Source of the DNA: Aliiroseovarius sp. PrR006
GTDB taxonomy: Bacteria > Pseudomonadota > Alphaproteobacteria > Rhodobacterales > Rhodobacteraceae
Length of the DNA: 64,000 nucleotides
Direction: 5' to 3'
Assembly: GCF_010500215.1 (NCBI RefSeq)
Contig: NZ_JAAGOY010000004.1
Coordinates: forward strand, 1,302,001-1,366,000
Position numbers and translations under genes: made by a program. Positions 26,884 to 38,473 of the stretch are shown piece by piece; positions within the stretch are counted from its first letter, which is position 1, and each line of letters starts with the position of its first letter. The notes below the pieces were generated by a model, which worked only from the letters and a program-made list of their open reading frames with translations, was not told where the DNA came from and made no database searches.

Positions 26884-27522
26884 CTACAGCGCAGCCAGCC
26901 CGCCCAGAAGGATCAGCACCTGCCCGGCAATATAGAAGCCCCAGATCGCATAACCCGCTTTCAGCCGGTGGTGATAGGTATCGGACATCCGAAACAGGCT
27001 GATCGCCAAAATGACGTCCGAGATGATGAACAAGCCCGCACCGATGACCGTTAAACCAAAGGGCAGCGCCAGAGCCGTCAGGCCCATCACGCCGATGATG
27101 ATCACATAGATCCGCACCGGCCATTGCAAGTGTCCTGTGTGTGTCGCCAACCAAACCTCGGTCGAGACCATCAGGCCCACTAGCACAAGCGCAGGGATGG
27201 GCGCGGTAGTGAATACTTCATAGATGGGGGCACCCGACAGACCCAGAAAATGCAGAATGTAGAGCAGATGCGCCAAGGCGAAAGCGGACAGACCATAGAG
27301 GAACGGGCCATCCCCGTCGCGCGATAGACCGAAATCGCCCAGCGCAGACAGGAACAATCCGGCGACCAAATAGGCAGAGCCTCCGCCAAGATAGGCCGCC
27401 AGCGAGAACACCGAAAGCGGGATCGTCTTGATGAGCGAGCGCGGCCACGAGGCCGGGCGCGATGTCAGCGGGAAATAGGCCAGTGAGATCAGAAGGCCTA
27501 GGATAAGGGGCAGTTGAGCCAT
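26884..27522 (-). CDS. YhhN/TMEM86-family lysoplasmalogenase-like protein
   Basis: A 212-residue integral membrane protein with about eight helices. Family residues FLSALGDFGLSRDGDGPFLYGLSAFALAHLLY (residues about 57-88, read in two parts: SALGDFGLSRDG and FLYGLSAFALAH) and ISDVILAISLF match the YhhN/TMEM86 family, whose animal members hydrolyse the vinyl-ether bond of lysoplasmalogen. The bacterial substrate is unproven. No clear Shine-Dalgarno before the ATG. It is 110 bases downstream of the diaphorase gene on the same strand and may be co-transcribed with it. Confidence 0.88.
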   Translation of the reverse strand: MAQLPLILGLLISLAYFPLTSRPASWPRSLIKTIPLSVFSLAAYLGGGSAYLVAGLFLSALGDFGLSRDGDGPFLYGLSAFALAHLLYILHFLGLSGAPIYEVFTTAPIPALVLVGLMVSTEVWLATHTGHLQWPVRIYVIIIGVMGLTALALPFGLTVIGAGLFIISDVILAISLFRMSDTYHHRLKAGYAIWGFYIAGQVLILLGGLAAL

Positions 27523-27632: not shown

Positions 27633-29318
27633 TCAGACTTCGTCGGGGAAGTGCTTCATGGTCAGACGGATCGGGTTCGGCGCCGCCTGCCCCAGACCAC
27701 AGATTGATGCGTCAACCATCGTCTGGCTCAGCTCTTCCAGCAGATCCTGATCCCACTTGTCCGCCTGCATCAGCTTCACAGCTTTCTCGCAACCGACACG
27801 GCAAGGGGTGCACTGACCGCAGCTTTCATCCTCGAAGAACCGCAGCATGTTCAAAGCGGCTTCCTTGGCGCTGTCTTTGTCGGACAGAACCACGACGGCG
27901 GCCGAGCCGATGAAGGTGCCATGCGGCTGCAGCGTGTCGAAGTCCAGCGGGATATCCGCCATCGACGCGGGCAACAGACCCGAGGACGGGCCACCCGGTT
28001 GATAGGCTTTGAAGCTGTGACCCTCGGCCATGCCACCGGCAGCCTCGATGATGTCGGTGATGGTCGAGCCCGCGGGCAGCAGATGCACACCCGGTTTGGC
28101 AACGCGACCCGAAACGGAATACGAACGCAGCCCCTTGCGGCCATTCTTCTCGACCGAGGTCAGGATCTCTGGGCCTTCGCGCATGATGCGGGCGACCCAC
28201 AGCAGGGTCTCGACGTTGTGGACCAAGGTCGGGCGGTTAAAGATGCCGACTTGAGCCACGAAGGGCGGGCGGTGACGTGGTTCGCCACGTTTGCCCTCGA
28301 TCGACTCGATCATCGCGCTTTCTTCACCGCAGATATACGCACCTGCACCGCGGCGCAGGTCGATAAAGCCGGGGGCGACGATGCCCGCGACTTCCAGCGC
28401 TGCAATCTCACGTCGCAGGATGTCCAGCACTGCGGGGTATTCATCGCGCATGTAGATAAAGCAGGTCTCAGCCTCGACCGCCCAAGCGGCGATCAGCATG
28501 CCTTCCAGCATAAGATGTGGGGTGCGTTCCAGATAATAGCGGTCTTTGAACGTGCCAGGCTCGCCCTCGTCGCCATTCACGGCCAGATAGCGCGGACCTT
28601 CGTTGGCGCGCACGAAGCCCCATTTGGTGCCCGAGGGGAAGCCCGCGCCACCAAGGCCGCGCAGGCCGGCGTTCAGAACGGTTTCCTGAACGTCCTTCCA
28701 GTCACCACCGTCGCGTAGCTCGGCCAGCTTGGCATAGCCACCCTCGGCCTGATACGCGGCCAGATCTTGATAGTCGGGGATGTGGGCGTGGGTGTCATCG
28801 GCCTGCAGCGCTGCCAGCGTTTTGTCAAACGTGGCGTGGTCAATGTGGTTGTGGCCCAGCTCCAGCACCGGCGCGGTATCGCAACGACCCATGCACGGCG
28901 CACGCACGACGCGCACTTCCGAGGCATCCAACCCGTCTTCAAGCGCCTTTTGCAGCGCTTCGGCGCCAGCCAGTTCGCAGGACAGGGAATCACAAACGCG
29001 GATGGTCAAAGCGGGCGGAGGCGTCTCACCTTCTTTCACCACGTCGAAATGGGCATAGAAGCTGGCGACCTCGTAAATCTCGGCCTGTCCGGTGCCCATT
29101 TCCTGCGCCAGCGCGCGGATGTGGTCAGCCGACAAATGGCCGTATTCGTCCTGAATCAGGTGCAAAAACTCGATCAGCAGATCGCGGCGACGCGGACGGT
29201 CGCCAAGCAAAGCCTGCACACGCTCCAGCGCATCCATATTCAGCTGACGGCCCTTCGGCGTCCGACGCCCTTTGCCTTTGCCCGATTTCCAGATGCCTTT
29301 TTTGTCGTCCAGCGCCAT
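27633..29318 (-). CDS. NuoE-NuoF fusion diaphorase, FDH beta-like
   Basis: A 561-residue fusion of a NuoE-like [2Fe-2S] thioredoxin-fold domain (Cys at CDSLSCELAGA and APCMGRCDTAPV, about residues 120-165) and a NuoF-like domain: FMN loop RGLGGAGFPSGTKW (about 242), NADH loop GDEGEPGTFKDR (about 270), ICGEESAMIESIEGKRGEPR (about 350) and [4Fe-4S] ESCGQCTPCRVGC (about 510). Such proteins pass electrons between NAD and a partner, usually as the beta subunit of soluble molybdenum formate dehydrogenase. No alpha subunit or fdsC/D is adjacent. ATG 29318 is chosen because AAGGGG lies 6 bases upstream. Confidence 0.88.
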   Translation of the reverse strand: MALDDKKGIWKSGKGKGRRTPKGRQLNMDALERVQALLGDRPRRRDLLIEFLHLIQDEYGHLSADHIRALAQEMGTGQAEIYEVASFYAHFDVVKEGETPPPALTIRVCDSLSCELAGAEALQKALEDGLDASEVRVVRAPCMGRCDTAPVLELGHNHIDHATFDKTLAALQADDTHAHIPDYQDLAAYQAEGGYAKLAELRDGGDWKDVQETVLNAGLRGLGGAGFPSGTKWGFVRANEGPRYLAVNGDEGEPGTFKDRYYLERTPHLMLEGMLIAAWAVEAETCFIYMRDEYPAVLDILRREIAALEVAGIVAPGFIDLRRGAGAYICGEESAMIESIEGKRGEPRHRPPFVAQVGIFNRPTLVHNVETLLWVARIMREGPEILTSVEKNGRKGLRSYSVSGRVAKPGVHLLPAGSTITDIIEAAGGMAEGHSFKAYQPGGPSSGLLPASMADIPLDFDTLQPHGTFIGSAAVVVLSDKDSAKEAALNMLRFFEDESCGQCTPCRVGCEKAVKLMQADKWDQDLLEELSQTMVDASICGLGQAAPNPIRLTMKHFPDEV

Positions 29319-29685
29319 GATGATCCCCTTGAAGCACCCATATATCATAACGGTCCCGCAGCACCGCACGCCATTCAAAAACGACATACGCATGGCGGAT
29401 TGCGTAGAACGACACATTCACGTTGACGCGTGCGCCCAGACATTCGCCATATTAATCCCAAAGCAGCATGTCTTGGCCGAACAGATTGCGCCGCCCATTG
29501 CGGTGCGTAATTTCCCGCCAAGGGGGAGCCTGTAAAACCATTCCCCCTTGTTTATCACCCCACCGGGCTTATTCTTCTTCCTGATACAAAACACATGGAA
29601 CGTGTTGATCTGAAAGGCCGCACGCGCGTGTTCGCGTCCCGGCCTTATAGGCTTTAGACGCGCCGTTTTTGGAAGGGACCTGAAC
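29319..29685. other. Divergent intergenic region with two hairpins
   Basis: No gene could be supported in these 367 bases. They separate the minus-strand diaphorase from the plus-strand XpaC-TelA cassette and should hold both promoters; I could not pick a convincing -35/-10 pair for either. Two hairpins are visible toward the cassette: AACAC...GTGTT at 29589-29605, and a long one at 29614-29646. Confidence 0.6.
29614..29646 (+). other. Long stem-loop upstream of the XpaC-TelA cassette
   Basis: AAGGCCG-c-ACGCG, loop CGTGTT, CGCGT-cc-CGGCCTT: 12 base pairs with a small asymmetric bulge, ending 40 bases before the 27-residue peptide gene. No T-run follows at once (ATAGGCTTT), so terminator, attenuator and protein-binding site all remain possible. 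Confidence 0.55.
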
Positions 29686-29769
29686 GTGTCGGAAAATGGA
29701 TTGCAGAAAACTGCATTCTTTATGCTTCTCGCGCTGATCCTCTATGTTTCGATCATGGGAGGCGCGTAA
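29686..29769 (+). CDS. 27-residue single-pass membrane peptide
   Basis: GTG-initiated open frame of 28 codons: a polar MSENGLQKT start followed by one hydrophobic helix (AFFMLLALILYVSIMGGA). GGAAGGG lies 8 bases before the GTG, and the TAA overlaps the ATG of the XpaC gene by one base (TAATG), a typical coupling arrangement. It reads as a real small protein that leads the cassette, or as a translated coupler for XpaC. No family recognised. Confidence 0.7.
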   Translation: MSENGLQKTAFFMLLALILYVSIMGGA

Positions 29770-30653
29770 TGGCACAGCGATATGGGGGCGACTTCAGCCC
29801 CGGTGGACAGCCCAAAACGCCGCCGCCCACTCGCCGTCCGTTCGACGGACAAGAACCGGCCCGCAGTGCCGGGCGGGTGAACTTTCTGTTTCTTGCCCCC
29901 CTGCCCCTTGCGATCCGTGCGTTTTTTCAACCACCGACCGAGATGGCCCTGACCCTTATGGCGTTCGGCATTCTGATCGCGTCAGCGTGGCTGACCCGCG
30001 ATGGCGTGATGGCCCATCAGGCCTATGACGCCCGTAAAATTGCGCGCCGCCCCGCGATCCCGCGCAAACTGTTCGGTGCGGCCCTGATGGGGGCTGGTCT
30101 GGCGCTGGTGGGTTTTGCGGGGGGCTCGGTCCTGAATGCCGCGATCTTTGGTGTGCTCGGGTCGGGTCTGCATCTGGCCGCGTTTGGCCCCGACCCCCTG
30201 CGCAACAAAGGCGCCGAGGGCGTGGACGAGTTCCAAACTGACCGCGTTGCTCGTGCCGTGGGTGAGGCTGAAAAGCATCTGAACGCTATGCGCGAGGCCA
30301 TTTCTCGCATCCGCGACCGCCGCGTCGAAGCGCGCCTTGATCAGTTCATCGCCACCGCCCGCGACATGTTCCGCACGGTCGAAGACGACCCCCGCGACCT
30401 GACATCGGCCCGGAAATATCTGGGCGTCTACCTGCTGGGCGCGCGTGACGCGACGACCAAATTTGTCGACATCCACCTGCGCGACCCGCATGGCGGCGCG
30501 TTGGCCGACTACGAAATCCTGCTGGATGATTTGGAAGCAAATTTCGCAGCCAAAACGAAGCAATTCCTAAAAGATGATCGCAGCGATCTTGATGTCGAAA
30601 TCGAGGTGCTGCGGGAGAGATTGGCACGCGAAGGCGTGCGCAGCGAAGATTAA
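29769..30653 (+). CDS. XpaC-family protein (5-bromo-4-chloroindolyl phosphate hydrolysis)
   Basis: A 294-residue protein: proline-rich N-terminus (residues 1-35), three or four membrane segments (FLFLAPLPLAIRAFF; MALTLMAFGILIASAWLT; LFGAALMGAGLALVGF; LNAAIFGVLGSGLHL), then a soluble helical domain (AEKHLNAMREAISRIRDRRVEARLDQF) matching the XpaC family. XpaC is named for a Bacillus phosphatase-stain phenotype and commonly stands beside telA; no catalytic site is evident. It is coupled to the upstream peptide and followed by telA after 17 bases. Confidence 0.85.
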   Translation: MAQRYGGDFSPGGQPKTPPPTRRPFDGQEPARSAGRVNFLFLAPLPLAIRAFFQPPTEMALTLMAFGILIASAWLTRDGVMAHQAYDARKIARRPAIPRKLFGAALMGAGLALVGFAGGSVLNAAIFGVLGSGLHLAAFGPDPLRNKGAEGVDEFQTDRVARAVGEAEKHLNAMREAISRIRDRRVEARLDQFIATARDMFRTVEDDPRDLTSARKYLGVYLLGARDATTKFVDIHLRDPHGGALADYEILLDDLEANFAAKTKQFLKDDRSDLDVEIEVLRERLAREGVRSED

Positions 30654-30670
30654 GTGACGAGGATAATGTG

Positions 30671-31864
30671 ATGACCCAGACGACCCGCGAACAGGCGCAA
30701 GCCGCCCTGAAAGAGATTGAGGACACCACCGCTGTGATCCTGCCCGAACCCTCGACCGCTCTGGTCCCTCTGGCGGAGGCAGATGAGCCCACCAGCGCCG
30801 AAATCCAGAAGCGCATGGACGAAATCGACATGACGAACACGCAGTCGATCATCGAATTCGGCTCGGCCGCGCAGTCGGAATTGCAGGTGATCAGCCAAGA
30901 CATGCTGCAGGGCGTGCGCAACAAGGATGTTGGCCCGGCGGGCGACAGCCTACGCAATATCGTGACCACGATCCGCGGCTTCTCGATCAGCGAATTGGAC
31001 ATGCGCCGCAAGCGCAGCTGGTGGGAAAAACTGCTGGGCCGCATGGCGCCTGCAGCCAAGTTCATGGCGCGTTACGAGGATGTTCAGGGTCAGATCGACA
31101 AGATCACCGACAACCTGCTGAACCACGAACATGTGCTTCTGAAAGACATCAAATCGCTCGACAAGCTCTATGAGAAAACACTCGATTTCTATGATGAGCT
31201 GGCTCTGTACATCGCCGCCGGTGAAGCCAAACTGGCCGAGCTGGACGACACCGTAGTCCCCGCAAAAGAGGCCGAGGTCGCCGCCGCCCCCGAAGAGGAT
31301 GGCGTGATCAAGGCACAGGAACTGCGCGACCTGCGCGCCGCGCGTGACGATCTGGAACGCCGGGTGCATGACCTGAAGCTGACCCGTCAGGTGACGATGC
31401 AGTCGCTGCCCTCGATCCGTCTTGTTCAGGAAAACGACAAGTCACTGGTGACCAAGATCAACTCGACCTTGGTGAACACAGTACCGCTTTGGGAAACCCA
31501 GCTGGCGCAAGCCGTGACCATCCAGCGCTCGTCCGAGGCTGCTGCCGCCGTGAAAGACGCCACTGACCTGACCAACGAGCTTTTGACCGCCAATGCCGAA
31601 AACCTGCAAGAGGCCAACCGCATGGTCCGTCAGGAAATGGAGCGCGGTGTCTTCGACATCGAAGCGGTGAAATCGGCCAACGCCACCCTGATCGCCACGA
31701 TCGAGGAAAGCCTGGCCATCGCAGACGAGGGCAAAGCCAAACGCGCCGCTGCCGAAGAAGAACTGGTGAAAATGGAAGCCGAGCTGAAAGAGACTTTGGC
31801 AGCCGCGAAGGCACGCGGCACCGCATCAGGTCACAATCTGGCCGAAAGCGTGTCGGACAGCTAA
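30671..31864 (+). CDS. TelA/KlaA-family toxic-anion resistance protein
   Basis: A 397-residue cytoplasmic, mostly alpha-helical protein of the TelA family (MRRKRSWWEKLLGRMAPAAKF near residue 115 and the coiled-coil C-terminus RTRQVTMQSLPSIRLVQENDKS-like LTRQVTMQSLPSIRLVQ near 240 are diagnostic). Family members were found through tellurite and colicin resistance plasmids, but chromosomal copies beside XpaC suggest an envelope-stress role. ATG 30671 is used because GAGG lies 8 bases upstream; an adjacent GTG at 30668 is the alternative. The DUF2927 lipoprotein gene follows after 20 bases. Confidence 0.92.
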   Translation: MTQTTREQAQAALKEIEDTTAVILPEPSTALVPLAEADEPTSAEIQKRMDEIDMTNTQSIIEFGSAAQSELQVISQDMLQGVRNKDVGPAGDSLRNIVTTIRGFSISELDMRRKRSWWEKLLGRMAPAAKFMARYEDVQGQIDKITDNLLNHEHVLLKDIKSLDKLYEKTLDFYDELALYIAAGEAKLAELDDTVVPAKEAEVAAAPEEDGVIKAQELRDLRAARDDLERRVHDLKLTRQVTMQSLPSIRLVQENDKSLVTKINSTLVNTVPLWETQLAQAVTIQRSSEAAAAVKDATDLTNELLTANAENLQEANRMVRQEMERGVFDIEAVKSANATLIATIEESLAIADEGKAKRAAAEEELVKMEAELKETLAAAKARGTASGHNLAESVSDS

Positions 31865-31884
31865 GAAGGGCGAGAGGCAAGCAG

Positions 31885-32850
31885 GTGAGCAGAACCGCGT
31901 TTCACAAAATCACAGGGGCCGTTATTGCGATGACAGCCCTGACTGCTATGGCGGGCTGCACGTTGCAGACGCCTGCCTCGGCGCCGCCTCAGCCTGTCGA
32001 AACCCTTCCGCATCTGACGATTAACCCCGCGAAAGACAACAGTGCCTATCTTCGGAACTACTACGCCAAGATACAGGCCAGCCGTCTGGTGCATGATCAG
32101 TTGCGTAGGGATGGCGGTGGTCCCGACACGCCCTTCACCGACGCAATGCTGGCGCGGAATTTTGAACGCATCGCCTTCAACAGCGAATACACTCGTGTGG
32201 GCAATCGCCGGATCACACAGGAACACGCCGTCAAGTTGACCCGGTGGACCCGGCCTGTGCGTTTCGGGCTGAACTTCGGGGACGCGGTACCCGAGGAACA
32301 GCGCGAGGTCGACCGGCAGGTCTTTGCGCCCTATGTCGCCCGACTGGCCCGCTTGACGGGCCACCAGATCAGCGCCGCCTCGGGTGCCGTTCCGATTGGT
32401 GTGAACTTCACCGTCTTCATCCTGACCGAGAGCGAGCGCCGCGCGAGTGCGACGGCACTCCGTCGTGCGGTGCCAGGCATAAGTGACGCCGATCTCTATC
32501 AAATCGCTAATCTGAATCGCGACACACAATGCGTTGTCTTCGCCGGAGACCGCGATGACGATAACCGTATCGAGCGCGCCGTCGCCGTGATCCGCGCCGA
32601 GCTGCCCGACCTGATGCGCACGGCCTGCATCCACGAGGAACTGGCGCAAGGCCTTGGCCTACCCAATGACAGCCCCTTGGCGCGTCCCTCGATCTTTAAC
32701 GATTCCGACGAATTCGGGCTTCTTACCTCGCATGACGAGCTGTTGTTGCAGATGCTCTATGACAAGCGTCTGCAGCCCGGTATGACCGCCGACGAGGCGC
32801 GCCCGATCTTTACCAAAATTGCAGCCGAACTTATGGGCGGCTCTGCGTGA
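31885..32850 (+). CDS. DUF2927 lipoprotein
   Basis: A 321-residue protein with a lipoprotein signal (KITGAVIAMTALTAMAGC, Cys near residue 25) and a DUF2927-type domain. The segment TACIHEELAQGLGLPNDS near residue 249 has the spacing of a metzincin zinc site with the ligands changed (E-E-x-x-Q-x-x-G-x-x-N). That points to a peptidase-like fold without obvious zinc ligands. GTG start with GAGAGG upstream. Third main gene of the XpaC-TelA cassette; likely membrane-anchored facing the periplasm. Confidence 0.82.
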   Translation: MSRTAFHKITGAVIAMTALTAMAGCTLQTPASAPPQPVETLPHLTINPAKDNSAYLRNYYAKIQASRLVHDQLRRDGGGPDTPFTDAMLARNFERIAFNSEYTRVGNRRITQEHAVKLTRWTRPVRFGLNFGDAVPEEQREVDRQVFAPYVARLARLTGHQISAASGAVPIGVNFTVFILTESERRASATALRRAVPGISDADLYQIANLNRDTQCVVFAGDRDDDNRIERAVAVIRAELPDLMRTACIHEELAQGLGLPNDSPLARPSIFNDSDEFGLLTSHDELLLQMLYDKRLQPGMTADEARPIFTKIAAELMGGSA

Positions 32851-32878
32851 CCCCATTGCCCCCTAGGAGGATTTAACC

Positions 32879-33994
32879 ATGGGTATTCTTGATTTTCTGA
32901 CCGGAGAATTCATCGACGTCATTCATTGGGTGGATGACACGCGCGACACGATGGTCTGGCGCTTTGAGCGCGAAGATCACGAGATCAAGTACGGCGCGAA
33001 GCTGACCGTGCGCGAAGGTCAGGCCGCCGTGTTCGTGCATGAAGGCCAGCTGGCGGATGTGTTCACGCCCGGCCTTTACATGCTTGAAACCAACAACATG
33101 CCGATCCTGACGACGCTGAACCACTGGGATCACGGCTTCAAGTCGCCTTTCAAGTCCGAGGTTTATTACGTCAACACGACCCGTTTCAACGATCTGAAAT
33201 GGGGCACCAAGAACCCGATCATGCTGCGCGATCCGGAATTCGGCCCGACCCGCATCCGCGCCTATGGCACTTACTCGGTCCGCGTGACGGACCCAGCGAA
33301 GTTTCTTGTGGAAATCGTCGGCACTGATGGCGAATTCACGATGGACGAGATCAGCTTCCAGATCCGCAACATCATCGTGCAGGCCTTCAGCCGCGTGATC
33401 GCAGGCGCGGGCATTCCGGTTCTGGACATGGCCGCCAACACTGCTGATCTGGGCAAAATTGTCGCCGCCGAGATCACCGGCATTGTCGCCGATTACGGCC
33501 TGTCGATCCCTGAATTCTATATCGAAAACATCTCGCTTCCCCCCGCGGTCGAGGCGGTGATGGACAAGCGCACCTCGATGGGCATCGCTGGCAATCTAGA
33601 CAACTACATGAAGTTCAACGCGGCCGAGGCGATGGGGGCCGAGAACTCGGCCATGGCATCGTCGATGGGCGCTGGTATGGGTGCTGCGATGGGTATGGGC
33701 ATGGCCGGTCAGATGCAGTCCGGCCCGTGGGGCGCCGCCCCTGCTGCCCCGGCGGCACCGCGCGCACAAACACCGCCTCCTCCGCCGCTGGAACGCGTCT
33801 GGCACGTGGCCGAGAACGGCAATACCAAAGGTCCGTTTTCCAAGGCCGCAATCGGGCGCATGGCCGCTGCAGGCAGTCTGACCCGCGACAGCCACGTCTG
33901 GACCCCCGGCCAAGACGGCTGGATGCGCGCCGAGGATGTGGCCGAGCTGGCACAGCTCTTCACCATCTTGCCGCCGCCCCCGCCCGGTGCCTAA
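32879..33994 (+). CDS. SPFH-domain protein with C-terminal GYF_2 (DUF4339) domain
   Basis: A 371-residue protein: SPFH/band-7-like domain of the YdjI 'virion core' type at about residues 20-245 (MLETNNMPILTTLNHWDHG; SEVYYVNTTRFNDLKWGT; RAYGTYSVRVTDP), a Met/Gly/Ala-rich linker (about 250-305), and a GYF_2 domain (WHVAENGNTKGPFSKAAIGR to WMRAEDV, about 312-360). SPFH proteins scaffold membrane microdomains; GYF_2 mediates protein contacts. AGGAGG stands 8 bases before the ATG, the strongest ribosome site in the cassette. Confidence 0.9.
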   Translation: MGILDFLTGEFIDVIHWVDDTRDTMVWRFEREDHEIKYGAKLTVREGQAAVFVHEGQLADVFTPGLYMLETNNMPILTTLNHWDHGFKSPFKSEVYYVNTTRFNDLKWGTKNPIMLRDPEFGPTRIRAYGTYSVRVTDPAKFLVEIVGTDGEFTMDEISFQIRNIIVQAFSRVIAGAGIPVLDMAANTADLGKIVAAEITGIVADYGLSIPEFYIENISLPPAVEAVMDKRTSMGIAGNLDNYMKFNAAEAMGAENSAMASSMGAGMGAAMGMGMAGQMQSGPWGAAPAAPAAPRAQTPPPPPLERVWHVAENGNTKGPFSKAAIGRMAAAGSLTRDSHVWTPGQDGWMRAEDVAELAQLFTILPPPPPGA

Positions 33995-34054
33995 GTCGTC
34001 GGGCGATCCGACCGGGTCGCCCTTCCCCTTTCCTCGAGACAAGGTTTCCTCCGG

Positions 34055-35170
34055 ATGACCTATCCGCGCGAAGACACCCAATCGCCCGTCGAAGAACATC
34101 GCTTTCCCTGCGACCAATGCGGGGCAGATCTGCGGTTCGATCCCGAGCACAACCAGCTGACCTGTGACCATTGTGGCTTCAAGGCTCCGATCGAGGATCG
34201 CCAACCGCCACAGGCCGTCATCCGCGAGCTGGACCTGAAACGCGCCCTGTCCGCTGATCTGCCGGATCACGAACTGGAAGAAACCCGTGTGGTCGCCTGC
34301 CCGAACTGCGCCGCTCAGTTCGAATTTGACGCGGCCACCCATGCTGCAGAATGCCCCTTCTGCGCCACACCAGTTGTGACTGACACCGGCACGCATCGGC
34401 ATATCAAGCCCAAAGGGCTCGCCCCGTTTGAATTAGAGGAACGCGAGGCTCACAAAGCCATGAGCGACTGGCTGGGTCGACTCTGGTTTGCGCCGAACGG
34501 GTTGCAGGAGTACGCCCGCAAGGGGCGCAAGATGACGGGCATTTATGTGCCCTATTGGACCTTCGATGCGGACACCAAAACGCGATATACCGGCCAGCGC
34601 GGGACCGAGCACCAACGCACACGCACCGTCATGGTAAATGGCAAACGCGAAACGCGCACGACGACACATGTCCGCTGGACCTCGGTCTCGGGCCGGGTGG
34701 CGCGGTTCTTTGATGACGTGCTGGTGCTGGCCTCTCGTGGTCTTCCCAAGAAATACACCGACGCGCTGGAGCCGTGGGATCTGTCGCGATTGGAGCCCTA
34801 TCGCCCCGAGTTTCTGGCAGGCTTCCGCGCCGAGGGCTACACCGTCGATCTGGACGAGGGCTTTGACGAAGCGCGCGAGTATATGAACCGCGTCATCCTG
34901 CGCGATGTGAAATTTGACATTGGCGGGGACCGTCAGCGCGTCAGTTCGATGGACACGGAAATGTCCGATCTGACCTTCAAGCACATCCTGCTGCCGGTTT
35001 GGCTGGCCGCCTACAAGTATCGCGGCAAGACCTATCGGTTTGTGGTGAACGGGCAGAATGGTCGTGTACAAGGGGAACGCCCCTACTCGGTCTGGAAAAT
35101 CGCCTTTGCTGTGATTTTGGGACTGATCGTGGCCGGTGTGATCGGCTATCTGTCGGCGCAAAGCCAATAG
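34055..35170 (+). CDS. Double zinc-ribbon protein with C-terminal membrane anchor
   Basis: A 371-residue protein with two N-terminal zinc ribbons (FPCDQCGADL...LTCDHCG, residues 24-44; VACPNCAAQFEF...AECPFCATPV, residues 84-109), a middle domain with aromatic-rich YVPYWTFDADTKTRYTGQRG, and a single C-terminal helix (IAFAVILGLIVAGVIGYLSA). Relatives are often labelled 'primosomal protein N'-like', but no helicase motifs exist here. It follows the SPFH gene by 60 bases and probably works with it at the membrane. Confidence 0.85.
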   Translation: MTYPREDTQSPVEEHRFPCDQCGADLRFDPEHNQLTCDHCGFKAPIEDRQPPQAVIRELDLKRALSADLPDHELEETRVVACPNCAAQFEFDAATHAAECPFCATPVVTDTGTHRHIKPKGLAPFELEEREAHKAMSDWLGRLWFAPNGLQEYARKGRKMTGIYVPYWTFDADTKTRYTGQRGTEHQRTRTVMVNGKRETRTTTHVRWTSVSGRVARFFDDVLVLASRGLPKKYTDALEPWDLSRLEPYRPEFLAGFRAEGYTVDLDEGFDEAREYMNRVILRDVKFDIGGDRQRVSSMDTEMSDLTFKHILLPVWLAAYKYRGKTYRFVVNGQNGRVQGERPYSVWKIAFAVILGLIVAGVIGYLSAQSQ

Positions 35171-35180
35171 AGGGCAGCCG

Positions 35181-35861
35181 ATGACTCCCGACCAATTCGA
35201 CACGCTTCTGAGCGCCCGCCATTCCTGCCGTGCCTTCCGCCCGGATCCGATCCCCACGCCGGTGATCGAACAAATCTTGCGCTCGGCCCAAAAGGTGCCA
35301 AGCTGGTGTAACGCGCAGCCGTGGCAGGTTGAAGTGACCACCGCGTCCGAAACCGACCGCCTGCGCGATGCCTTCTATGCCCACGCGATGCAATCCGCGC
35401 AGACGCCGGATATAGACTGGCCCAGCGCCTATACCGGGCTGCATCAACGCCGCCGCAAGACCTGTGGCTTGCAACTTTACAAAAGCGTGGGTGTAGCGCC
35501 GGGGGATCGCGCCGCATCCGGTCAGCAGATGCTGGAAAACTTCCGCTTCTTCGGCGCCCCGCATATCGCCCTGATCACCGCTCCCGCCGAGCTTGGCCCC
35601 TATGCCTATCTGGATTGCGGGGGCTTCGTGACCGGGTTCTGTCTGGCTGCCACCGCCCAAGGTGTCGCAACAATCCCACAAGCCGCCGTGGCCGCGTTCG
35701 CGCCCTTCCTGCGCGACTGGTTTAATCTGCCAGACGATCGCGTGATCCTGTGTGGCATTGCCTTTGGTTTGAGCGACGAGGAGCACCCCGCCAACAGGTT
35801 CCGCACCGAACGGGCGGATTTGGACGAGTGGGTGCATTGGCACGGAAAGGACAGTAAATGA
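35181..35861 (+). CDS. Nitroreductase-family flavoprotein
   Basis: A 226-residue FMN/NAD(P)H oxidoreductase (family start [36 protein letters not shown] near residue 34; C-terminal [16 protein letters not shown]). Such enzymes reduce nitro compounds, quinones or flavins; the physiological substrate cannot be told. It begins 10 bases after the zinc-ribbon gene and overlaps dtd by four bases, so it reads as part of the same transcript as the XpaC-TelA cassette. Confidence 0.9.
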
Positions 35862-36295
35862 GAGCTTTGATCCAACGCGTTAGCGAGGCTGCGGTTCGTG
35901 TCGACGGCGAGGTTATTGGCGAGATCGGCCCCGGCCTTCTGGTTCTGGTCTGCGCGATGGAAGGCGACGCCGAGGCGAATGCCGACACGCTGGCGGCCAA
36001 AATCTCGAAACTGCGGATCTTCAAGGATGACGCGGACAAGATGAACCGGTCCTTGCTGGATACGGGCGGGACGGCGCTTGTGGTCAGCCAGTTCACGCTG
36101 GCCGCCGACACCTCGCGCGGGAACCGTCCGGGGTTTTCTACAGCAGCCCGCCCGGACGAGGGCGAGCGGCTTTATGAATACTTCGCAGACCAGCTACGCG
36201 GTCACGGGATTGAAGTGGCGCAGGGGCGTTTCGGCGCGGACATGAAAGTGTCGCTGGTGAATGACGGTCCAGTCACGATCTGGATGGAGTTCTAA
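35858..36295 (+). CDS. dtd: D-aminoacyl-tRNA deacylase
   Basis: A 145-residue DTD-type deacylase that removes D-amino acids (and mischarged glycine) from tRNA. Diagnostic segments: [18 protein letters not shown] at the N-terminus, the active-site [20 protein letters not shown] (about residues 75-94) and the C-terminal cross-subunit motif [12 protein letters not shown] containing the Gly-cisPro-like GP. The ATGA overlap (35858-35861) couples it to the nitroreductase gene. Last gene of the plus-strand run. Confidence 0.96.
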
Positions 36296-36395: not shown

Positions 36396-37328
36396 TTAGT
36401 AGCCCGCTTTTTTATCGACCAGATGCAGGAAGGGTTCCTTGGCCTCGCCGCGACGGATGTTTTCGGCAATGACCTTTGCCGCCGTGTCGGGGCGCGTATC
36501 TGACGCGATATGCGGCGTGACCGTCACTTTCGAGTGGGCCCAAAAGGGATCGTCAGCGGGCAGAGGTTCGACGCGGAACACGTCCAGCGTCGCGTGACCG
36601 ATATGGCCGCGATCCAGCGCGCCCAGCAGGGCGGAATCGTCAATCAGCGGGCCACGGCCCGGATTGATGATCACAGCGCCTTCGGGCATCATTGCGATCC
36701 GTTCGGCGTCCAGCACGTTTTCGGTCGCTTTGGTAGCGGGCAGCAGCAGGACCAGAATGTCAGAATTGCGCAGCACCTGTTCCAACCCTTCATCGCCGTG
36801 CAGACAGGTGACGCCGTCGATCGACTTGGCACCGCGGCTCCAGCCAGACACGGGGAAGTTCAGATCGGTCAGCGCCTTAGCACAGACGCGGCCCAGCTCT
36901 CCTAGCCCCAGAATGCCAACGCGGCGGTCGCGGGCCAAGGGCGGGGCGAGACGGCCCCACGCGGGGCTGGTGTTGTGAATGTCCTGATCCATTTCCAGAT
37001 GGTGGCGTAGCACGTGGCCCACGACCCATTCGGTCATGCCTTCGCTTAGCCCCTGATCCACCATACGCGCATAGGGCTGGGTCAGCGTGGGGTTATAGAC
37101 GATCCGTTCGACCCCGGCCCACAGGCCCAGCACCGCCTTGGCACGTGTAAAGGGGGTGAAATCCTGAAGCGCGCTGTTTGGGTCGTAGACGATGTAATCC
37201 ACCTGATCGGCGGGCAGGTCGCAGGATAGCGCCGCCTCGATCTCGATCTCGTCAAGCGCCTTGCTGATCTCGCGTTGATAGACATCCCAGCGTTTGGGGT
37301 TGCCGGCATAAAGGACGTTGATGGGCAT
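36396..37328 (-). CDS. ghrA: Glyoxylate/hydroxypyruvate reductase A
   Basis: A 310-residue NAD(P)H-dependent D-2-hydroxyacid dehydrogenase of the GhrA type, reducing glyoxylate to glycolate and hydroxypyruvate to glycerate. Rossmann loop RVGILGLGELGRVCAKAL near residue 137; catalytic Arg in INPGRGPLIDD near 225, Glu in DVFRVEPLP near 252 and His in VTPHIASDTRP near 275. Its ATG overlaps the rodA stop by one base (TGATG), so it is translated as the last gene of the rod-shape operon despite an unrelated function. Confidence 0.93.
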   Translation of the reverse strand: MPINVLYAGNPKRWDVYQREISKALDEIEIEAALSCDLPADQVDYIVYDPNSALQDFTPFTRAKAVLGLWAGVERIVYNPTLTQPYARMVDQGLSEGMTEWVVGHVLRHHLEMDQDIHNTSPAWGRLAPPLARDRRVGILGLGELGRVCAKALTDLNFPVSGWSRGAKSIDGVTCLHGDEGLEQVLRNSDILVLLLPATKATENVLDAERIAMMPEGAVIINPGRGPLIDDSALLGALDRGHIGHATLDVFRVEPLPADDPFWAHSKVTVTPHIASDTRPDTAAKVIAENIRRGEAKEPFLHLVDKKAGY

Positions 37329-38473
37329 CACTTTTGTCTCGCTCTGTGCACATGTGCGCTTTGGACCAAACCGAATCCGACCAGCAATATCAACATGGCT
37401 GATCCGCCATAACTGACCATCGGCAACGGCACCCCGACCACCGGGGCAAGGCCCATCACCATGGACATGTTCACAGCAAAGAACAAGAAGAAGGTGACGG
37501 AAATCCCAAGGATCAGAAGCGAGCTGAAACGGTCCTTGTTTTGGAAGGCTGACACGGCGCAGAAGATCAGGATCAGCACATAGAGCGTCAAAAGCGAGGC
37601 GCCCCCAAGAAAGCCGAACTCTTCTGCCAATGTGGTGAAAATGAAATCAGTGTGCTTTTCCGGCAGAAAGTTCAGGCGTGACTGCGTGCCCTGCATAAAG
37701 CCCCGCCCGGTCCAGCCCCCGGACCCTAGCGCGATCTTGGATTGGGTGATGTGATAGCCCGCCCCCAGCGGGTCCGAAGATGGGTCTAGAAACGTATCGA
37801 TCCGACGGTACTGATAGTTTTTCAGTAGCTGCCATTCCGTCCCGCGCGACATGAATACAGACGCAACCAGCCCCACGCCCGAGGCGATAACCGCCCCGAA
37901 ATACCACAAGCTGACACCTGCCAGAAACATGATCACGCCGCCCCCCGTGACCAGCAGGATCGAGGTTCCGAGGTCGGGCTGACGCAGCACCAGAAAGGTC
38001 GGCAGCATGATCAGGATCACCGGGATCAGCACCCAAAGCGGACGCGAGACCTTCTTGATATCGAGCCAGTCATAATAAGCTGCCAGCATCATCACCAAAG
38101 TGATCTTCATCAGCTCGGACGGTTGCAGACGCATGAAGCCAAGGTCGATCCAACGCTGCGCGCCCATCCCGACGGATCCGATCACCTCGACCAGAACCAG
38201 CAGGACCAGAGAGATCAGATAACCTAGCCCGGCCATGTTGCGCCAGAACCAGATGGGCACCATGGCGATGACAAACATCAGGAACATACCCAACGCAAAG
38301 CGCTTCATCTGCGCCATCGCCCACGGGTCCATCTTGCCGCCCGCAACCGAGAACAGCATCAGGAAACCCACGCTGGCCACCGCGATCAGAAGCAGCACAA
38401 GCGACCAGTTCAGATAGAGCACCTTACGCAGCCCTGACGGAACGGTTTTGACGTTATACTCAAGATAACTCAT
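37328..38473 (-). CDS. rodA: Rod-shape peptidoglycan glycosyltransferase RodA
   Basis: A 381-residue SEDS-family polymerase with ten transmembrane segments that builds lateral-wall glycan strands with PBP2. Family signatures: GAQRWIDLGFMRLQPSELMK near residue 108, ALGSGGWTGRGFMQGTQ near 247 with LPEKHTDFIFTTLAEEFGF after it, and the C-terminal LPMVSYGGSAMLILLVGFG. Its start overlaps mrdA by four bases (38470-38473). Part of mreB-mreC-mreD-mrdA-rodA-ghrA. Confidence 0.97.
   Translation of the reverse strand: MSYLEYNVKTVPSGLRKVLYLNWSLVLLLIAVASVGFLMLFSVAGGKMDPWAMAQMKRFALGMFLMFVIAMVPIWFWRNMAGLGYLISLVLLVLVEVIGSVGMGAQRWIDLGFMRLQPSELMKITLVMMLAAYYDWLDIKKVSRPLWVLIPVILIMLPTFLVLRQPDLGTSILLVTGGGVIMFLAGVSLWYFGAVIASGVGLVASVFMSRGTEWQLLKNYQYRRIDTFLDPSSDPLGAGYHITQSKIALGSGGWTGRGFMQGTQSRLNFLPEKHTDFIFTTLAEEFGFLGGASLLTLYVLILIFCAVSAFQNKDRFSSLLILGISVTFFLFFAVNMSMVMGLAPVVGVPLPMVSYGGSAMLILLVGFGLVQSAHVHRARQK

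Follow-up and report, generated by a model that had tools for sequence, protein, structure and literature searches.

Introduction

Two gene sets known from the Bacillota are the closest described relatives of the locus reported here. In Bacillus subtilis, YdjI, YdjG and YdjH are required for the membrane foci formed by PspA (PMC8581546). XpaC and TelA, which are encoded side by side, are annotated as toxic-anion resistance proteins. In Listeria, a bacteriocin induces xpaC-telA, and disrupting telA reportedly raises sensitivity 4-fold for nisin and 2-fold for tellurite (PMC12791056), while lactococcal telA lies within the CesSR envelope-stress regulon (PMC3164122). Here, we describe a block of six genes from the alphaproteobacterium Aliiroseovarius sp. 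PrR006 (Rhodobacteraceae) in which relatives of both sets stand together. The window, that is, the whole stretch of DNA analysed, comprises 64,000 nucleotides (assembly GCF_010500215.1, contig NZ_JAAGOY010000004.1, positions 1,302,001 to 1,366,000); all positions given below refer to it, and all of its features discussed here lie on the + strand.

We put the probability at about 0.6 that this block encodes an inner-membrane care (envelope-stress) complex, which would be a version of the Bacillus YdjGHI module that lacks PspA and has XpaC-TelA as its partner. Both halves of the block point to the stressed inner membrane because of the findings in Bacillus, Listeria and lactococci cited above (PMC8581546; PMC12791056; PMC3164122). 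Every part belongs to a known family, and an annotated Paracoccus ferrooxidans record already names four of them singly. For the combination, the missing PspA, the pseudo-metzincin site and the microprotein, no description was found in the searched literature, which lacked most subscription journals.

A conserved block in the Rhodobacteraceae

The genes for a micropeptide, XpaC, TelA, a DUF2927 lipoprotein, an SPFH-GYF_2 protein and a zinc-ribbon/transmembrane (TM) protein follow each other on the same strand with successive gaps of -1, 14, 20, 28 and 60 bases, and may share one transcript. A nitroreductase gene (35181..35861) begins 10 bases after the zinc-ribbon gene, and dtd (35858..36295) follows with a gap of -4 bases. 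The open reading frames (ORFs) are placed as an earlier, sequence-only reading of this DNA had described them.

Conservation was assessed in 120 genomes from 120 genera of the Rhodobacteraceae, each searched with every component. TelA, XpaC (above the curated cut-off) and the SPFH protein (above 200 bits) were each present in 109, the zinc-ribbon protein in 110 and DUF2927 in 115, about 100 of which had at least two DUF2927 matches. The 11 genomes lacking TelA are the same ones that lack XpaC above cut-off and a strong SPFH match; one of them (G227) has an XpaC match of 21 bits, below cut-off, and another (G203) an SPFH match of 28 bits, above the low cut-off of 24. The zinc-ribbon gene is absent from 10 of these 11, the exception being G232, whose assembly may simply be broken since the SPFH gene adjoining its zinc ribbon is truncated by a contig end. 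This joint absence is a count of genomes without a tree and not a count of repeated losses.

Gene order was followed in neighbourhoods fetched from the 108 other TelA-bearing family genomes, from one further family member (G018) and from 11 loci of 10 genomes of other families. The order xpaC-telA-duf2927-spfh-znr (znr denoting the zinc-ribbon gene) is collinear on one strand in 93 of the 110 family loci, the window included. Among the 17 remaining loci, three lack DUF2927 only, two have the zinc ribbon on the opposite strand, and in 12 at least one gene is missing because the contig ends or the genes lie apart. As a synteny control, the 97 of the 109 fetched family loci that span at least 14.5 kb, which were picked by TelA, were searched with phmmer at E 1e-15. 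This recovered xpaC in 94, telA in 97 (by construction) and duf2927, spfh and znr in 92 each, against 66 for dtd, 24 for the nitroreductase gene, one for the downstream gene at 36396-37331 and none for the upstream gene at 26884-27522. The upstream gene at 27633-29417 and the downstream gene at 37328-38473 likewise had no match at this threshold in the 97 loci. Nitroreductase and dtd, kept in only 24 and 66 loci, therefore look like neighbours and are probably outside the block. On a Paracoccus ferrooxidans replicon, annotated TelA, DUF2927, SPFH and zinc-ribbon genes stand between different neighbours, and in the Paracoccus denitrificans record NZ_CP141053.1 TelA and a zinc-ribbon protein are encoded about 4 kb apart. 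The block is a real conserved unit within the family, as had been proposed, and its order outlasts the flanking genes.

The SPFH and zinc-ribbon half

For comparison, Bacillus pspA-ydjG loci were located via a primer sequence printed in a B. subtilis paper, and pspA and ydjG lie side by side in them. The zinc-ribbon/TM protein of the window (34055..35170) has two zinc ribbons with four CxxC motifs, a middle domain and one predicted C-terminal TM segment. Among the 25 Pfam matches listed for it all are sub-threshold and most are zinc-ribbon models, and the four CxxC motifs are present in 101 of 101 block proteins. In a single BLASTP comparison it aligned with YdjG of B. spizizenii at 27% identity over 343 columns (E 3e-40), with both ribbons covered. 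The SPFH/Band_7_1 protein (32879..33994; PF13421, E 2e-100) matched an Enterococcus SPFH protein by hhalign with 97.9% probability and 23% identity, and in Enterococcus this gene stands in a row with YdjG-like and TPM (YdjH-type) genes. The assignment of the window protein to the YdjI type follows from PF13421 and from this Enterococcus relative, not from YdjI itself. A zinc-ribbon protein homologous to YdjG beside an SPFH protein of YdjI type makes the right half of the block the known YdjI/YdjG envelope-stress module.

The SPFH protein ends in a GYF_2 domain (33800..33949; PF14237, E 5e-20), followed by a poly-proline tail. GYF_2 was found at the C-terminus in all 37 SPFH proteins of a scanned subset, and PPP occurs within the last 50 residues of all 104 locus-derived SPFH proteins. 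In 18 family loci (e.g., L069), a small multi-TM gene is inserted between spfh and znr, and is by reading a putative cytochrome b561-like gene.

In the source genome, PF04012 (PspA) had no match at E <= 0.001, and in the family sample it was above cut-off in 21 of 120 genomes, so that in most family genomes sampled the module must function with no recognisable PspA. PADLOC models of known anti-phage defence matched none of the five larger block proteins at E <= 0.01.

The XpaC-TelA half

The XpaC-like protein (29769..30653; PF10112 Halogen_Hydrol, E 6e-29) has two TM segments predicted by hydropathy, a soluble tail and the N-terminal motif MAxR[FY]GGK[YF]SP. TelA (30668..31864, with an equally possible alternative ATG start at 30671; PF05816, E 1e-107) has its closest named relatives in Pseudorhodobacter (78%) and Paracoccus (72%), and shares 38% identity with the TelA from an XpaC-TelA pair in Cytobacillus. 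It is modelled as a long helical rod (pLDDT 75, pTM 0.59). With PF10112 and PF05816 genes adjacent, the window contains the XpaC-TelA pair, which the sequence-only reading had rightly taken for known neighbours and which in Listeria is linked to envelope stress (PMC12791056). A second xpaC-like gene lies directly upstream of the block in 11 loci (L063, L104, L106, L107, L112, L122, L134, L140, L155, L161 and L170); a count over the family loci gave 12 of 110, the L175 case being one gene in two pieces by its coordinates.

The name of TelA comes from tellurite resistance, and the block could be read as a tellurite or toxic-anion resistance locus in which TelA and XpaC prevent oxyanion damage, with the zinc-ribbon and SPFH proteins in an accessory role under metal stress. 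The plasmid protein KlaB, annotated as tellurium resistance, is a homologue with roughly 29% identity, the Listeria telA mutant is reported to be 2-fold more sensitive to tellurite, and a nitroreductase gene comes next in the window. However, presence in 109 of 120 genera is unlike an occasional metal-resistance trait, Pfam finds no metal transporter among the five larger block genes, and the nitroreductase gene is kept in only 24 of the 97 loci. The nisin effect in Listeria is also larger than that of tellurite (PMC12791056), and the SPFH-YdjG partners belong to the envelope-stress kind. We consider a resistance locus of this sort decidedly unlikely.

The DUF2927 lipoprotein and the microprotein

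The DUF2927 lipoprotein (31885..32850; PF11150, E 2e-60) is predicted to have a matrix-metalloprotease (metzincin) fold, which bears out the degenerate metzincin-like motif proposed earlier. At the site itself, HExxHxxGxxH is replaced by a near-invariant EExxQxxGxxN, read in the window as E251-E252-x-x-Q255-x-x-G258-x-x-N261-D262 (32635..32670; the register is a reading of the sequence). Among 103 block proteins, E251, E252 and G258 are kept in all, and Q255, N261 and D262 in 102. The EExxQxxGxxND pattern also occurs in 10 of 10 DUF2927 loci outside the block that were scanned by motif. A second DUF2927 protein of the source genome (G000:C4:314700-315293; L210) lies in a longer open frame and has the same EExxQxxGxxND site. 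A lipobox was predicted in 73 of the 103 block proteins by a strict pattern and in 83 by a relaxed one, and that of the window (MAGC) fits the relaxed pattern only. DUF2927 is, as judged from its residues, not expected to be a zinc protease.

These features bear on another reading, in which the block serves quality control or assembly of membrane proteins, with an SPFH scaffold like the HflKC/stomatin type, assembly-factor roles for TelA and the zinc-ribbon protein, and DUF2927 as a periplasmic substrate binder. Lactococcal telA is induced together with ftsH and oxaA2 by membrane-protein overproduction (PMC3164122), and chaperone-like assembly roles of band-7 partners have been argued (PMC11237479, section 19). 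Against this, the five larger block genes include no known protease or insertase family by Pfam, and the DUF2927 site has lost its zinc ligands. We regard it as rather unlikely as a separate explanation; it overlaps the envelope-stress reading and may be its molecular content.

The block opens with a microprotein of 27 residues (29686..29769, GTG start), whose stop codon overlaps the xpaC start codon (TAATG). In the family, hydrophobic ORFs of 20-46 codons that end between 45 bases upstream and 25 bases downstream of where the xpaC match begins were found in 104 of the 106 loci with a strong xpaC (the misses being L146 and L175), whereas the same test before the other genes gave 0 of 110 for telA, 1 of 104 for duf2927, 1 of 103 for spfh and 2 of 99 for znr. 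In 45 of the 104 micro-ORFs, the position of the stop implies that it overlaps the xpaC start codon, like that of the window. Their consensus is approximately MSxTGLQKxAYxLLxxLxxYVxxxGG. The ORF is conserved across the family and encodes a predicted single-TM microprotein, which is probably translationally coupled to xpaC. Promoter-like words occur upstream of the micro-ORF (e.g., L063), namely CCCCCTAG in 27 of 104 stretches and CTAG-N18-CCTA in 26 of 104, both against 0 in control stretches.

Linkage beyond the family

Of the 11 TelA loci that belong to other families within the class, three (L089, L091 and L092) contain XpaC-TelA-SPFH-ZnR (ZnR, zinc-ribbon protein) without DUF2927, so that this core exists in three further families. 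Outside the window's family, 13 further SPFH loci were inspected, one from G128 and the others from 12 of the 17 phylum-sample genomes with SPFH. A YdjG-like match adjoins SPFH in 12 of them, six strong and six weak (16-34 bits), and the thirteenth locus is cut by a contig end. Four of these outside SPFH proteins were scanned for C-terminal adaptors, which were GYF_2 twice, HTH_17 and SHOCT. With a YdjG-like neighbour in 12 of 13 loci, varying adaptors and a TPM gene in Enterococcus, SPFH-YdjG appears to be an old core whose adaptors and partners can be exchanged. In L224, SPFH-SHOCT is followed by a zinc-ribbon/DUF4178 protein beside what by reading are apparent TM spermidine synthase and DUF350 genes, an arrangement reminiscent of one of the PspA operon classes in PMC11237479 (section 19). 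On a Vibrio coralliilyticus plasmid (L236), an SPFH and YdjG-like pair adjoins a group of divergent genes, one of which has a TIR domain.

It could be supposed that the block houses two or three functions that are unrelated and have long kept the same location, without a joint machine. The halves do occur separately in other classes, and DUF2927, mostly with two or more matches per genome, is absent from some blocks. However, the core is missing together from the same 11 family genomes, the block order outlasts its flanking genes, the XpaC-TelA-SPFH-ZnR core recurs in three further families, and outside the class G414 (L226) pairs XpaC-TelA with a degenerate SPFH-GYF_2 gene, with a lytic-transglycosylase (SLT) gene nearby. 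The G414 arrangement hints at an independent link of the halves. A mere shared address strikes us as very improbable. We infer that XpaC-TelA was joined with SPFH-ZnR within the class and that the window's family kept the result.

Proposed function

In the envelope-stress complex that we favour, the SPFH protein would form a membrane-associated scaffold in the cytoplasm, with the YdjG-like zinc-ribbon/TM protein as its anchor, and the GYF_2 domain and conserved poly-proline tail may cross-link SPFH subunits or recruit partners. XpaC in the membrane and TelA as a long helical rod would occupy the place of Bacillus YdjH, likewise a membrane protein, and PspA, and would be the client or effector that acts on the strained membrane under the organisation of the SPFH-YdjG scaffold. 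It is genomic context alone that would put TelA in the place of PspA. The DUF2927 lipoprotein may be an addition specific to the family, with a binding or sensing role facing the periplasm, and the microprotein might tune XpaC through translational coupling and membrane contact. The suggestion in the sequence-only reading that the parts point to the envelope agrees with the SPFH and zinc-ribbon proteins being of the YdjI/YdjG envelope-stress kind and with the link of XpaC-TelA to envelope stress.

A more specific version, which we offer tentatively and which may well not hold, is phage-shock-like membrane repair without PspA. XpaC-TelA would have replaced YdjH-PspA as the client of SPFH/YdjG, the zinc-less metzincin lipoprotein with its oxygen-ligand triad Glu-Gln-Asn would sense the periplasm, with another metal or peptides as possible ligands, and the 27-residue TM peptide would gate XpaC.

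In a class sample of 153 genomes, SPFH exceeds 200 bits in eight, all of which are among the 13 with TelA above cut-off (Fisher p 2e-10), and the two genes are adjacent in six of these eight; 45 further genomes with weak SPFH matches (<= 31 bits; 12 above the low cut-off) were left uncounted. Several observations weigh against the complex as proposed. In a phylum sample of 259 genomes, 239 after removal of the window's family (SPFH at E <= 1e-20, TelA at E <= 1e-6), five have both genes, 30 TelA only, 12 SPFH only and 192 neither, so that the link is not significant (p 0.08), and both Fisher values ignore shared ancestry. Eight of the 11 TelA loci from other families lack SPFH or ZnR alongside, five of them with a weak XpaC match and three with TelA alone. 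Within the family, 3 of 110 loci retain the other four genes without DUF2927, and the halves are split in several genomes (e.g., G169, with SPFH 38 kb away). PspA is also above cut-off in 20 TelA-bearing family genomes, so that exclusion is not the rule. The TelA model matches helical rods only, with no Foldseek match at E <= 0.001, and neither a TelA-PspA relation (hhalign probability 0.3%) nor a relation of XpaC to an Enterococcus TPM protein was detected. Independent occurrence of the genes, which had been named in advance as speaking against a system, is not the case for the core within the family, and is partly so at the scale of the phylum.

TelA and XpaC are tied by the block to a scaffold that in Bacillus localises a membrane-repair protein, which makes their role directly testable in alphaproteobacteria such as Paracoccus denitrificans. 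For DUF2927 there is now a predicted fold together with an unusual, conserved site, and a family-wide microprotein is added.

Comparison with known systems

The sequence-only reading had called the system undescribed, which is too strong, as SPFH and zinc ribbon form the Bacillus YdjI/YdjG module and XpaC-TelA is a known pair. In the B. subtilis pspA-ydjGHI operon, a Band_7_1 SPFH protein is encoded beside a double-zinc-ribbon TM protein, as in the window. The Bacillus SPFH C-terminus is, however, a zinc ribbon (PMC11237479, section 19, where YdjL is printed), whereas that of the window is GYF_2 and poly-proline. The Bacillus operon also contains YdjH, a TPM membrane protein, while no TPM match was found among eight scanned window proteins, and the window block adds XpaC, TelA, DUF2927 and the microprotein. 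The XpaC-TelA (YaaN) pair of the Bacillota, e.g., Listeria lmo1966-1967 (PMC12791056) and Cytobacillus, belongs to the same families as the pair described here, and in Cytobacillus the gene order is that of the window. In the Bacillota these are just two genes side by side, whereas in the window they belong to a longer block that also contains the SPFH-YdjG module. KlaB shares the TelA family with the window protein and, unlike it, is plasmid-borne. The metzincin metalloproteases (MMP family) have in common with DUF2927 the predicted fold, while their three zinc ligands (HExxHxxGxxH/D) are all replaced in DUF2927, by Glu, Gln and Asn.

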